Below, in pieces: positions 43,118-48,090 of a DNA stretch of 64,000 nt. Location: the IMG/VR virus record IMGVR_UViG_3300028384_001275, positions 40,524-104,523 of that record; one strand, 5' to 3'. Under the pieces are notes generated by a model, which made no database searches, was not told the DNA's origin, and saw only the letters and a list, made by a program, of their open reading frames with translations. This DNA comes from a virus. The first letter of the stretch is position 1. Each line of letters begins with the position of its first letter. A program made the translations under genes and the position numbers.

Positions 43118-44710
43118 ATGACTGCAACTGCCAGTTACGTTTCTGCAACTAGGATGATAACGGTGTCGGGTGATGGTTTGCCCGCACCTGTCTCCGCAGG
43201 CACTTTTCCAAATACCAATAATCCTAATACCATTCAGGAGCAGGATTTTGACCACAACTTCTATCATCGTGGTGGGACTTTTGGTATCACCAGGACTTTT
43301 GATGACAATACATGGTCTCAAGATGGATTCATTAGATCCATCACTATTTCTGTAAATGATCTTAGTTTGTTTACAGGAGAAAATCCCAGTATTTCAGTCG
43401 GTGATTATTTGTTATTTACATTTAGTGATGGATTGAAACAAAGATTCATTTTTAGAGGGACTGCATTCACTTCTATTTCGGGTGAGTGCAGATTAGCTTC
43501 AGATGACAAGTTAGATATTATTGTTACAGATCAAGGCAGTGGAAGTGGCACTTATGAATACTTTGATCAAAGAGATGGTAGGACAACAACTCCCCTAGGT
43601 GCTATTGGCATTGCTGCCAATGGTGTTATTTTGTATAACCCATCAGCGGGTGGTGGAGGAAATCCCCCAAGTGGATTTAGTTGGAATAGTGTTGCAGCTA
43701 CTGTAGTAAGTTTTGGAGATGATACATGTGGTGGTCATCCAGAGCAAACGGGACAATATAATTATGATGATGCTAAATTTCTGACCTGTTGGAAAGCAAA
43801 CTCCAGCATGGCTGGATATAATGATTATTATGGCACAACACAATATAATGGTGATGTTTTAAGGCATCCTGACGGACATTCAAAAATACTTGGTATTGCA
43901 TTTGACGGATTCCCAATTTATGGTCCTTATGGATATGGCGACCCATGGGACACCTCTACTGCGGTAAGACCCATAACATCATCATATGCGATCCGAGATA
44001 CTGAAGTAGACGGTCGTCCAGATTATGGCACTGATGATACAAATCCTCCCGCAGGATCTTTAATGGAAGATTATGAATTTGTTGAAGGTAGTGGAGATCT
44101 TGATTATCACAATGGTCGTTTCTGCATTACTCCTGAGTTTCAGGATGGCACCTATGCATATTTCATAACAGTTGATCCTGACAATGTAGAAACCCCTACG
44201 TTTCCATACATCGTGGGTCTCACTTCTCGGATGGGTCTAAACAAACCAGCAGATGATGGTGCAAATCCTGTGACTACGGATCCTGGCAGTGGTGGAGGTG
44301 GTGGCACCGTTACACCCGAGACATTGCGGTTTACACTGCAACCCCAAAACGTTTCAGTCAATCCTGGTCAAACGGCAACATTTACAATTATTGCAGATAT
44401 TATCCCTGGAGGTGGCACAGTTGCCTATCAGTGGTATAGATCCACAGATGGTGGTTTTGCATTTGCAGCGATCACTGGAGCAACCTCTTCAACTTATGAG
44501 GTGACTGCTCTAGCATACATGACAGGATATAAGTATCGCTGTCGGATTACTGGACCTGTTGGTGAGACAGCAGCAGAAAACTCACCCCTTGACTCCAATG
44601 CTGTTACGTTAACAGTTACTGGATCTGGTGGAAGTGGTGATACTGCTAATAGATTCGACTCTACAAGCAGCACATTTGACTCCACATCACAAACTTATGA
44701 TGGCACCTAA
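43118..44710 (+). CDS. YHYH-domain and Ig-like structural protein
   Basis: A 530-residue protein. Residues 160-370 form a YHYH-type domain with HSKILGIAFDGFPIYGPYGY, a long loop and DYHNGRFCITPEF ... YFITVD ... FPYIVG, closely parallel to the domain in the giant protein. Residues 400-503 are an Ig-like domain (QPQNVSVNPGQTATFTI ... YQWYRS ... YRCRI), again matching the giant's C-terminus. The last 18 residues repeat FDST. It looks derived from the giant gene or sharing parts with it. A surface-exposed tail role is likely; biochemical function unknown. Confidence 0.7.
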   Translation: MTATASYVSATRMITVSGDGLPAPVSAGTFPNTNNPNTIQEQDFDHNFYHRGGTFGITRTFDDNTWSQDGFIRSITISVNDLSLFTGENPSISVGDYLLFTFSDGLKQRFIFRGTAFTSISGECRLASDDKLDIIVTDQGSGSGTYEYFDQRDGRTTTPLGAIGIAANGVILYNPSAGGGGNPPSGFSWNSVAATVVSFGDDTCGGHPEQTGQYNYDDAKFLTCWKANSSMAGYNDYYGTTQYNGDVLRHPDGHSKILGIAFDGFPIYGPYGYGDPWDTSTAVRPITSSYAIRDTEVDGRPDYGTDDTNPPAGSLMEDYEFVEGSGDLDYHNGRFCITPEFQDGTYAYFITVDPDNVETPTFPYIVGLTSRMGLNKPADDGANPVTTDPGSGGGGGTVTPETLRFTLQPQNVSVNPGQTATFTIIADIIPGGGTVAYQWYRSTDGGFAFAAITGATSSTYEVTALAYMTGYKYRCRITGPVGETAAENSPLDSNAVTLTVTGSGGSGDTANRFDSTSSTFDSTSQTYDGT

Positions 44711-44736: not shown

Positions 44737-46224
44737 ATGGCTAAGCAAAATCTTAATATTGGATCGGCGGCTAACGACGGCACAGGTGATAGTCTCAGAG
44801 ATGGCGCTATCAAATTAAATAGCGTGATTAATGAGCTGTATACTGCTCTTGGAAATGATACCAACCTTCAAATTAATATCGATAGTCCGACTACAGGACA
44901 GTTATTGAAATGGAATGGATCATTATTCACTGAGGGATCATTTAATTCATTAACTGAAAATCTAGATGTCAATGATCAAAATATCACATCATCTGATGGT
45001 GGTGATGTAGTATTGAAACCTCATAGCACAGGCGATATTAAATTGTGGGCAGGTGGCACTGGTAGTGCTCTTACATATATCGATGGCGCTGACGGTAAAC
45101 TAAAGTATTCAAACTTTTTTTCCCAGTTATCAGATCTACCTGATGTGTCCACTCATCATGGTATGTTTGCTCATGTCCATGATGAAGCACATGGTTACTT
45201 TGCACACTCTTCTTGGATTCAGTTGCTTGATACTGGATCTTCCATCGGTGAATTGTCTGATGTAGACATGACTGTTGGTGGCGGACCCTCCGCTGGTCAA
45301 GTGCTGAAGTGGAATGGCACTGATAATAGATGGGAGCCTGGAAATGATGCTACCGCAGATGGTGGTGGTGGTGGCACTACACAAAACTTGTTTGAAACTG
45401 TTAATGCCGATAGTGGATCGACAACTGCTTCTGCTGCAACAGATACATTAACCATCGCTGGCGGCACACTTATTTCGACAGAAATAACTGGAGATACTGT
45501 TACTATTAACATGACAGGATCTTTGGGAGATCCCGATCAAAACCTCTTTTCCGTTGTTGGATCAGATTCTGGATCAAAGACTGCCAATTCCACGACAACG
45601 ACTATCAACTTTATTGGTGGCACTGGAATTTCTACTGCTATCAGTGGAGATAATCTGACTATTACGAATGACTCCCCCAATGCAGATCAAAATATCTTTG
45701 CTACTGTTTCGGGTGATAGTGGTGGATCAACTACGGCAGATGCAACTAATGCAACACTAACTGTTGCAGGTGGCACAGGTGTTTCTACAGCAATTACATC
45801 TAATACAGTTACTGTAAATGCTGAAGTTGCATTTGCGTCAGCTGGCACACCGAATGCCAATACAACTTTGATTGCCGACGAAAACGGCATGTATTATAAG
45901 GCACCTTCACCTACTGTTGGTTTTACAGTTAGTGCTTTTGGATCTACCGCATATACCTTTGAGGGTGGTGGGGTAAATAGTAGCACAAACAACCCAACGC
46001 TCTATGTGTATCGTGGGTTTACTTACAGATTCAATAATACAGCAACTTCAGCACACCCCTTTGCTCTTCGGACTTCTAATGGTGGTGGAGCTGTATCTGG
46101 TGTTGCAGGATCTCAGTCTGGTGTCCAATATTGGACAGTGCCAATGGCATTAGCTGCAGGCACGACATATGTGTATCAATGCACAATTCACTCTGGTATG
46201 GTCGGCAATATTGTGGTGGTCTGA
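44737..46224 (+). CDS. Structural protein with C-terminal cupredoxin domain
   Basis: A 495-residue virion-type protein. The N-terminus (MAKQNLNIGSAANDGTGDSL) is a trimer-type tail domain common in marine phage structural genes; the middle is made of beta repeats around GGT(G/L)(I/V)ST(A/E)I. Residues 395-495 form a cupredoxin fold with the four ligands of a type-1 blue copper site: H440 in AHPF, C482 and H485 in CTIH, and M488. LYVYRGFTYRFNN matches the strand before the first ligand. A copper-binding domain on a tail protein is striking: it may bind copper, aid trimer stability or attach to a host surface. Function is inferred; metal binding is untested. Confidence 0.75.
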   Translation: MAKQNLNIGSAANDGTGDSLRDGAIKLNSVINELYTALGNDTNLQINIDSPTTGQLLKWNGSLFTEGSFNSLTENLDVNDQNITSSDGGDVVLKPHSTGDIKLWAGGTGSALTYIDGADGKLKYSNFFSQLSDLPDVSTHHGMFAHVHDEAHGYFAHSSWIQLLDTGSSIGELSDVDMTVGGGPSAGQVLKWNGTDNRWEPGNDATADGGGGGTTQNLFETVNADSGSTTASAATDTLTIAGGTLISTEITGDTVTINMTGSLGDPDQNLFSVVGSDSGSKTANSTTTTINFIGGTGISTAISGDNLTITNDSPNADQNIFATVSGDSGGSTTADATNATLTVAGGTGVSTAITSNTVTVNAEVAFASAGTPNANTTLIADENGMYYKAPSPTVGFTVSAFGSTAYTFEGGGVNSSTNNPTLYVYRGFTYRFNNTATSAHPFALRTSNGGGAVSGVAGSQSGVQYWTVPMALAAGTTYVYQCTIHSGMVGNIVVV

Positions 46225-46227
46225 TAA

Positions 46228-48090
46228 ATGACAAGGACAGTCCCTGGATCAGGAGCACAGATACAACCCGTATTTAATAGTATATACGGTGTTAGAGAAG
46301 TATATGTAACTAATGGTGGATCTGGATATAGTCCCAGTAATCCACCTAGACTTCGTATTGGAAATTGTGGCACTCCCATTAGAGATGCTGTGCTTCGTCC
46401 AATCATTGAAGGGGATAATGGAGAAATCACAGCTGTTGAGGTTTTAGACCCAGGTGAGGGTTATGATCCCCTAAGATTGTTTATTGATGATGATAGTAGT
46501 AATGGTGGAGCTACAGGCATTATCAATCTAACTGATGATGGGGGTGTTGACTATATTACAGTCACTTCATTTGGCGATAATTATTTTGATTCTGTAGCAG
46601 AAGTAAGAGGTGGTGGAGGATCTGGAAGTGAGCTGGTCCCCATTACGGGTCTTGTTACAGGTCTTTCAATTACTAATCCTGGTCGTAATTATACTGAGAA
46701 TGATGTAAATATCATTATCTCTGGTGGTGGCGGTGATGGTGCAACTGGTGTTGCATCGGTAAATCCATTTGGTGAGGTTGCATCTATCAATCTTACAAAT
46801 GCAGGTGAATTCTTCGAGACTCCCCCACTAATCCAAATTATTGGTGGTGGTGGATCTGGTGCTACTGCAGAGGCATTTATTGACCTTGGTAGAATTACAT
46901 CTATTGATTTATTGTCTGGTGGTGGTGGATATACATCAAGTCCACAAATCATCTTTACTAGAGATACTGATTTAATCAGGACAACACGAAATAGACAGTC
47001 ACTTAACTCAGTCCTATTTAACCTTACAGGTCTTACTAAAGACGTTGGATCATCAGATACTACAGTTAATGTAGAGACCACTGGTGCATTTGTTGGATCT
47101 GGCAAATTTCTCATTGGTAGAGAAGTTGTCAGATATACAGGCAAGACTGCAGGATCTTTTACTGGATGCACCCGTGGCACCAATTTCAGATTTGACCAAA
47201 AAGTTATTCTCGATTCATTGCAAGATGATGCAGATACGGGATTGACAAACTATCAATTCCGAGTCACAGACCGCGTAAAGCGTGTTGTTGAAAACTCAAA
47301 TAACCGAGTTGCAATCGTTTATGACTGGGATAGACCTACTAGATCGCTTTATCTAACATTTGAAGTTGATGAGCTGGCGTTTATTGATGGTGGGCGCTCT
47401 AATGAAAAGGCAAAAATTATTGCATTTGTTGCTGGCACTGCAGGCGCATCAGGCACAGGTGTAGCACCTCACATTTTGTTAGAAGCAGAAGGTCAAAATA
47501 TTATTGCATTTACAAACCCATTTTCTGAAATTCAAAACCGTAGGTTTGAAGATGATGATGAGTTGGATGGTGCTGGTGATGGCATCATCGACTTGGTTAA
47601 TACTGGGACAGAGTTTGAAAATCAAATCAATCTTGATGGTGGTATTGCATCCTCCAGATATGGTATTGAAGAGACTCTTGGTGGACAAAACACCACTCTG
47701 CTTCAGGTTGGCGATCAAATCTATGATGGCAGCCCACAACCCTTAGTTGCATTTGTGCAAACTGCAGGTGCGTTGGGTGACGGTGATACTCATCAATCTA
47801 CTGCAAATATTGTTATCGAGTATTCATCATCAACTCTATTTAATGTGCCTGGTGCTGGTGGATCAGAAGAGGTAGTTGAGGGTCTCACTTCGGGTGTAAC
47901 AGCAACTACTGTTAGTAGGGTTACTGGACCAAAGACAGGGCAATTCACTTTGTCTGTTAAGAGTATTACAAATGATGACACAACTTACAAGTTTAGTCCA
48001 GGTGAAACTCTGCGAGGTAACACAAGTGGTGCCCAAGCACTTATCAAATCAGTTGAATATACAAGCTTCCTCAGAAATGAGGACACCTGA
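46228..48090 (+). CDS. Glycine-repeat tail structural protein
   Basis: A 620-residue protein. Residues 25-235 are tandem GSGY/GGGG repeats (VTNGGSGYSPSNPP, ISGGGGDGATGVA, LLSGGGGYTSSP) like those of the giant protein. A middle module contains REVVRYTGK ... GCTRGT, a pattern also present near the giant's N-terminus. The C-terminus ends in SPGETLRGNTSGAQALI, a G-x-T-SGA repeat also found in the 2434-residue tail protein. The gene is three bases after the cupredoxin gene and before gp8. It is probably a baseplate-attached structural protein; no enzyme motif. Confidence 0.68.
   Translation: MTRTVPGSGAQIQPVFNSIYGVREVYVTNGGSGYSPSNPPRLRIGNCGTPIRDAVLRPIIEGDNGEITAVEVLDPGEGYDPLRLFIDDDSSNGGATGIINLTDDGGVDYITVTSFGDNYFDSVAEVRGGGGSGSELVPITGLVTGLSITNPGRNYTENDVNIIISGGGGDGATGVASVNPFGEVASINLTNAGEFFETPPLIQIIGGGGSGATAEAFIDLGRITSIDLLSGGGGYTSSPQIIFTRDTDLIRTTRNRQSLNSVLFNLTGLTKDVGSSDTTVNVETTGAFVGSGKFLIGREVVRYTGKTAGSFTGCTRGTNFRFDQKVILDSLQDDADTGLTNYQFRVTDRVKRVVENSNNRVAIVYDWDRPTRSLYLTFEVDELAFIDGGRSNEKAKIIAFVAGTAGASGTGVAPHILLEAEGQNIIAFTNPFSEIQNRRFEDDDELDGAGDGIIDLVNTGTEFENQINLDGGIASSRYGIEETLGGQNTTLLQVGDQIYDGSPQPLVAFVQTAGALGDGDTHQSTANIVIEYSSSTLFNVPGAGGSEEVVEGLTSGVTATTVSRVTGPKTGQFTLSVKSITNDDTTYKFSPGETLRGNTSGAQALIKSVEYTSFLRNEDT

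Follow-up and report, generated by a model that had tools for sequence, protein, structure and literature searches.

Genomic context of the gp9-type protein

The window, by which we mean the whole 64,000-nucleotide stretch of DNA analysed here, comes from a viral record of 104.5 kb and includes the tail genes listed in Table 1. Central to them is a 495-residue protein that fits the profile of a family annotated as 'baseplate wedge tail fiber protein connector'. It also matches the Pfam family T4_gp9_10_N above the cut-off (E=5.7e-9), and a 42-sequence gp9 profile searched against the PDB matched T4 gp9 over residues 3-132 (E=4.7e-8) and T4 gp10 over residues 2-40 (E=6e-12). Following the majority annotation, we take the T4 counterpart to be gp9, not gp10. 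The first-pass annotation had spoken of a tail structural protein with a copper domain at its tip; the domain, its ligand set and their conservation stand, and the protein that carries them can now be specified as a gp9-type connector.

The N-terminus of the protein is of the baseplate type and is not an export signal. In a full-length AlphaFold2 model this region contains a helix (residues 19-38) and the repeat region contains beta strands, both at low confidence. The repeats that had been described as typical of tail proteins are indeed present, as three beta repeats of the form QN(L/I)F..(D)(S/T)G.., a unit that occurs as a single copy in most other cyanophage gp9 proteins.

Profile matches to Pfam and PHROG identify the genes around the gp9-type ORF as those for a YHYH virion protein, a second wedge-related protein and gp8, and P-TIM40, S-SZBM1 and P-RSM6 have them in the same order. 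The nearest named phage is P-TIM40, with 60% identity across the full-length gp9-type protein. Because the gp9-type match and the tail gene order are common to named cyanophages, we conclude that the window phage is a Kyanoviridae-like cyanomyovirus. Positions 22206-43103 of the window form one ORF for a 6965-residue virion protein that contains YHYH-like stretches and Gly-rich beta repeats.

T4 gp9 is trimeric, with 18 copies per virion; its N-terminus binds the baseplate and its C-terminal domain holds the long tail fibre coaxially (PMC3004832). By homology to T4, the 495-residue protein would be located in the baseplate and would dock the fibre, which makes the cyanophage gp9-type protein a probable long-tail-fibre socket.

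Table 1. Features of the locus in window coordinates, with related sequences referred to in the text.
Feature	Position	Strand	Remarks
YHYH-domain virion protein, upstream neighbour	43118..44710	+	Pfam PF14240, E=1e-35
gp9-like baseplate wedge / long-tail-fibre connector, 495 aa	44737..46224	+	phrog_677, E=1.3e-140
N-terminal gp9/gp10-type baseplate-anchoring region, aa 3-70	44743..44946	+	Pfam PF07880
Three beta repeats, aa ~216-362	45382..45822	+	alignment
Cupredoxin domain, aa ~393-495 (last ~103 residues)	45913..46221	+	AlphaFold2, Foldseek, profile matches
Ligand 1, His440, H-P-F motif	46054..46056	+	invariant; just before strand 442-445 in the model
Ligand 2, Cys482	46180..46182	+	invariant; at the end of strand 477-482
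Ligand 3, His485	46189..46191	+	invariant; in the loop joining the last two strands
Ligand 4, Met488, axial	46198..46200	+	invariant; in the His485 loop, right before the last strand, 489-494
Baseplate wedge-related protein, downstream neighbour	46228..48090	+	phrog_708, E=9e-201
Ligand-free second cupredoxin-like copy in relatives, baseplate protein downstream of gp9			L085, L087, L088, L157, L166, L171, L176, L184, L188
GTDB-filed contigs			L179-L185; Nonlabens, Euryarchaeota, Flavobacteriales, Rhodopirellula; L185 is a Gammaproteobacteria MAG with a gp9-type match only

The C-terminal domain is a cupredoxin

A cupredoxin domain had been suggested for the C-terminus of this protein, and AlphaFold2, Foldseek and profile comparison with the PDB agree on it. 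Modelled template-free from a 77-sequence alignment, the domain forms an eight-stranded cupredoxin fold with a pLDDT of 92.7 and a pTM of 0.83. Its best Foldseek matches in the PDB are the copper nitrite reductase of Hyphomicrobium, rusticyanin, amicyanin and plastocyanin, the protein on which superposition had been proposed (E down to 1.5e-5, probability 1.00, TMq ~0.5-0.57). The full-length model ends in the same high-confidence domain, with the same kinds of best Foldseek matches; its pTM is 0.32, it is poor elsewhere and it was used for domain boundaries only. A low full-length value is expected when a single chain of a trimer is modelled. The earlier limits of the domain (45922-46224) proved correct to within a few residues.

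Sequence profiles lead to the same fold. When a profile of 62 homologues was compared with the PDB, 28 chains matched at E<=1 and every one of them was a cupredoxin or a copper nitrite reductase, with amicyanin as the best match (E=2.7e-4). By fold and by homology, the C-terminal domain of gp9 is thus established as a cupredoxin. The TM-scores are moderate and the Foldseek rmsd to cupredoxins is often 4-6 A, which indicates that it is a distant variant. No cupredoxin model of Pfam or NCBIfam scores above its own cut-off for the gp9 domain: PF00127 (Copper-bind) gives weak matches in 46 of the 62 members (14.7 bits against a gathering cut-off of 21.2), and the NCBIfam amicyanin model TIGR02657 matches 59 of them (16.9 bits against a curated cut-off of 110.2). 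Scores under these two cut-offs are probably the reason why the databases leave the domain unnamed, and a widespread module has in this way been missed and left unannotated.

A complete and conserved type-1 ligand set

In the model, His440, Cys482, His485 and Met488 occupy the classical positions of a type-1 copper site. These are the residues that the first-pass annotation had picked out, they lie where it had placed them, and together they make up a complete type-1 set; their adjacency is seen at the level of model topology only. Cys482 is the sole cysteine of the 495-residue protein, and His440 and His485 are the sole histidines of the cupredoxin domain. In the profile alignment, the loop from cysteine to methionine (CxxHxxM) has the same spacing as in amicyanin chains.

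The conservation of the ligands in homologues, proposed earlier as a check on the copper site, turned out to be complete. All four were kept in 135 of 135 distinct C-terminal domains of homologues, the most divergent at about 37% identity, a count made with search patterns that contained the cysteine and histidine and, in one scan, also the methionine. A recount on domains from which the ligand-bearing search patterns are absent gave the same picture: 19 of 19 keep all four, including seven in which the loop is altered to Cx4HxxM or CxxHxxxM. Type-1 copper families typically vary the length of this loop while the ligands stay fixed. Two alignments, of 62 and 77 sequences, have 12 invariant columns apiece, and these contain all four ligands; among 42 full-length gp9 proteins the ligands are included in the 19 invariant positions out of 101 in the C-terminal region (p~0.001 for random placement).

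Distribution of the module

We detected the cupredoxin domain in 307 phage records, almost all of cyanomyoviruses, and the gp9-type protein in 318. The domain is a family-wide feature of cyanomyovirus gp9 and is not peculiar to the window phage. Its relatives lie mainly in fibre and baseplate proteins, those of phages with non-photosynthetic hosts included. The proximal tail fibre of P-SSM2 has two related cupredoxin copies, and that of S-SCSM1, labelled 'virion protein' in its record, also carries a cupredoxin; virion mass spectrometry has been reported for S-CREM2 and S-SCSM1. Related cupredoxins occur further in a structural protein of S-TIM5, in the podovirus P-GSP1, in a tail fibre of Melnitz, an OM43 phage, and in pelagiphage-type fibres, one of them with a T7-type N-terminus. 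In one T7-type tail fibre (L190) the cupredoxin lies near the end, at residues 475-573 of 622.

Additional copies are found in the baseplate proteins of relatives. Cyanophage baseplate proteins have a C..H..M cupredoxin nested within their YHYH domain, both in the counterpart of the upstream YHYH protein (L150, L159, L164) and in that of the downstream wedge-related protein (L084, L091, L097). Many relatives of the latter protein carry one liganded and one ligand-free cupredoxin. The window YHYH protein is without a nested copy, neither kind of copy was detected in the window wedge-related protein, and the 104.5-kb record, in the window and in the rest, holds no further cupredoxin copy and no separate plastocyanin gene or PF00127 match. 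Some extra copies elsewhere have Gln where the axial Met would be (CHHHTGQ and CHFHTNQ, in L021 at residues 169-304 and in L102 ORF 791), as does the second copy of gp9 that some relatives possess; Gln at this position is presumably the stellacyanin pattern.

Among GTDB genomes there were seven matches, all in phage-type loci. Six share the tail gene order or the large tail genes of the window and one has only the gp9-type protein, and these contigs are likely to be phage contamination of genome assemblies. Plasmid sequences gave no match. We considered host plastocyanin as the source of the module and found it unsupported in view of the short CxxHxxM loop, the profile matches to amicyanin-like and other cupredoxins, and the occurrence of the module in phages of non-photosynthetic hosts. 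Its presence in phages of OM43 and SAR11 counts against a link to host photosynthesis.

A proposed copper-stabilised knob at the fibre joint

We propose, with a probability of roughly 0.6, that the gp9 domain holds a one-copper, short-loop type-1 site and acts as a metal-stabilised knob at the fibre joint, loaded late and serving stability. In this model a single copper ion is predicted at His440, Cys482, His485 and Met488, in a type-1 site with amicyanin spacing. Phages assemble in the cytoplasm, which is copper-poor, and since the protein has no export signal, any loading with copper must be late. We hypothesize that the apo-domain folds in the cytoplasm and that copper loads onto the folded apo-domain, most likely at or after lysis. 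The loaded site would then stiffen the domain, giving a rigid terminal knob where the long tail fibre joins the baseplate. By homology to T4 gp9, the cupredoxin would be the outer, fibre-carrying domain, and under the T4 stoichiometry each trimer would bear three knobs and each particle 18. The copper would serve stability and not electron transfer. The fold, the ligand set and its conservation are computational observations; copper as the bound metal, the time of its loading and its stabilising role are our inferences.

A domain with the fold and the four ligands of the blue copper proteins that serve respiration and photosynthesis is present in almost every T4-like marine phage that infects picocyanobacteria, and in our view their virions therefore probably carry a metal. 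Three functions had been offered for the domain by the first-pass annotation, namely copper binding for stability, redox sensing at the cell surface and a repurposed fold, and of these we favour a metal-stabilised structural module. We extend the idea more tentatively, at somewhat less than even odds, to marine tailed phages including cyanomyoviruses, OM43 phages and pelagiphages: their baseplates and fibres would carry loaded type-1 sites, 18 of them in gp9 alone, free virions would thereby be copper proteins, and the copper would be put to use in fibre docking, in stability in seawater or in host-surface engagement.

Alternative readings of the site

The four residues might instead bind another metal, Zn(II) or else Cu(I) serving only as a static clamp, with no blue copper site ever forming. 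Ligand 1 is followed by Pro in the gp9 domain (HPF) and by Asn in amicyanin, so that the second shell is unlike that of amicyanin and gives this reading some footing; His-Pro after ligand 1 is what we take to be the type-1 pattern of multicopper oxidases (HPFHLH). Type-1 sites also accept other metals in vitro. However, two His, a Cys and a Met are a copper set and an invariant Met is rare in zinc sites, whereas Met488 is invariant in all 135 domains. We therefore consider another metal rather unlikely.

It is also possible, if fairly improbable, that the gp9 cupredoxin takes part in redox or host sensing, as a receptor-side element whose copper cycles or exchanges at the host surface to sense, engage or deliver copper to the cell. 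This would be the copper counterpart of the 'Ferrojan horse' idea for iron. The retention of a complete, redox-competent ligand set, beyond the mere fold, is in keeping with such a role, as is the placement of the module near the end of the L190 fibre and in other fibre proteins, and for the iron of phage fibres an engagement of metal receptors on the host has been proposed (PMC11705849). Nevertheless, gp9 sits on the rim of the baseplate and not at the receptor-binding tip (PMC3004832), the proposed element has no known electron partner, and the hosts of the carriers range over cyanobacteria, OM43 and SAR11.

A third reading, a metal-free cupredoxin beta-sandwich that serves protein-protein contacts only, is suggested by the baseplate protein just downstream of gp9. 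In nine genomes, among them those of syn9, P-SSM3, metaG-MbCM1 and S-H25, this protein contains a cupredoxin-related copy whose ligands have been replaced, although these are divergent sequences that align with less certainty toward the C-terminus. The copies with Gln at the Met position point the same way. The ligand-free copies indicate that the fold can lose its ligands in a virion setting, yet gp9 has not done so: it retains all four in each of the same nine genomes, and ligand loss was seen in none of the 135 domains, even where the loop length has changed. Ligand loss next door but not in gp9 is the strongest non-chemical argument that the gp9 site is used. Repurposing of the ligand-free fold applies to the neighbouring copy in relatives, and for the window gp9 copy it is disfavoured and quite improbable. 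That the fold itself is wrongly assigned and the four residues coincidental, as the sub-threshold scores of all Pfam and NCBIfam cupredoxin models might suggest, we regard as negligible against the concordance of sequence profile, AlphaFold2 and Foldseek.

Comparison with known systems

Cupredoxins and gp9 are each already known. In the literature searched, mostly outside subscription journals, we found no account of phage baseplates or fibres that regularly include a cupredoxin carrying all the type-1 ligands. Amicyanin (TIGR02657; PDB 1aac, 1sfd) resembles the gp9 domain in its identical CxxHxxM spacing, its rank as best profile match and its shared beta-sandwich, but it carries electrons as a free protein of the periplasm and has His-Asn at ligand 1, whereas the gp9 copy has His-Pro-Phe there and forms the C-terminus of a virion protein. 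Plastocyanin and PF00127 share the fold and the ligand types, with the gp9 domain scoring under the curated cut-off. Phage-borne petE is an auxiliary metabolic gene in its own right (PMC3037559), unlike the domain fused to gp9. Copper nitrite reductase, rusticyanin and the cupredoxin domains of multicopper oxidases are top Foldseek matches; compared with copper nitrite reductase and the multicopper oxidases, the gp9 domain is without type-2 or type-3 copper ligands and without a catalytic partner domain. T4 gp9 is homologous to the N-terminal and middle region of the 495-residue protein, the match being limited to residues 3-132; the cupredoxin that ends the cyanophage protein has no matching part in T4 gp9.

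The nearest precedent is provided by the HxH iron sites of T4 gp37-type fibres (PMC11705849), which likewise place metal ligands in a tail protein. Those sites are octahedral His sites on the trimer axis, whereas the predicted gp9 site lies within one chain and includes Cys and Met ligands. If copper is bound, it would add a second metal chemistry to phage tails besides the iron HxH sites and a new means of fibre stabilisation in seawater, with at least 18 copper sites per virion in nearly all known cyanomyoviruses, the phages of the ocean's most abundant phototrophs. Redox or metal cues might also act through it during infection, and it would amount to a small particulate copper pool.

Two further observations concern other parts of the protein and other viruses. 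The gp9-type protein contains a His cluster, HHGMFAHVHDEAHGYFAH, at window positions 45154-45207 (residues 140-157), with an HxH formed by H146 and H148 that is absent from S-RIM8-type gp9 and kept in P-TIM40 and S-SZBM1; it is possibly a second, trimer-axis metal site resembling that of T4 gp37. Fold matches to the C-terminal domain in BFVD included A0A481YVH3, A0A481Z7Q7 and others, small proteins termed 'beta-sandwich proteins' that come from giant viruses resembling marseilleviruses and pithoviruses.
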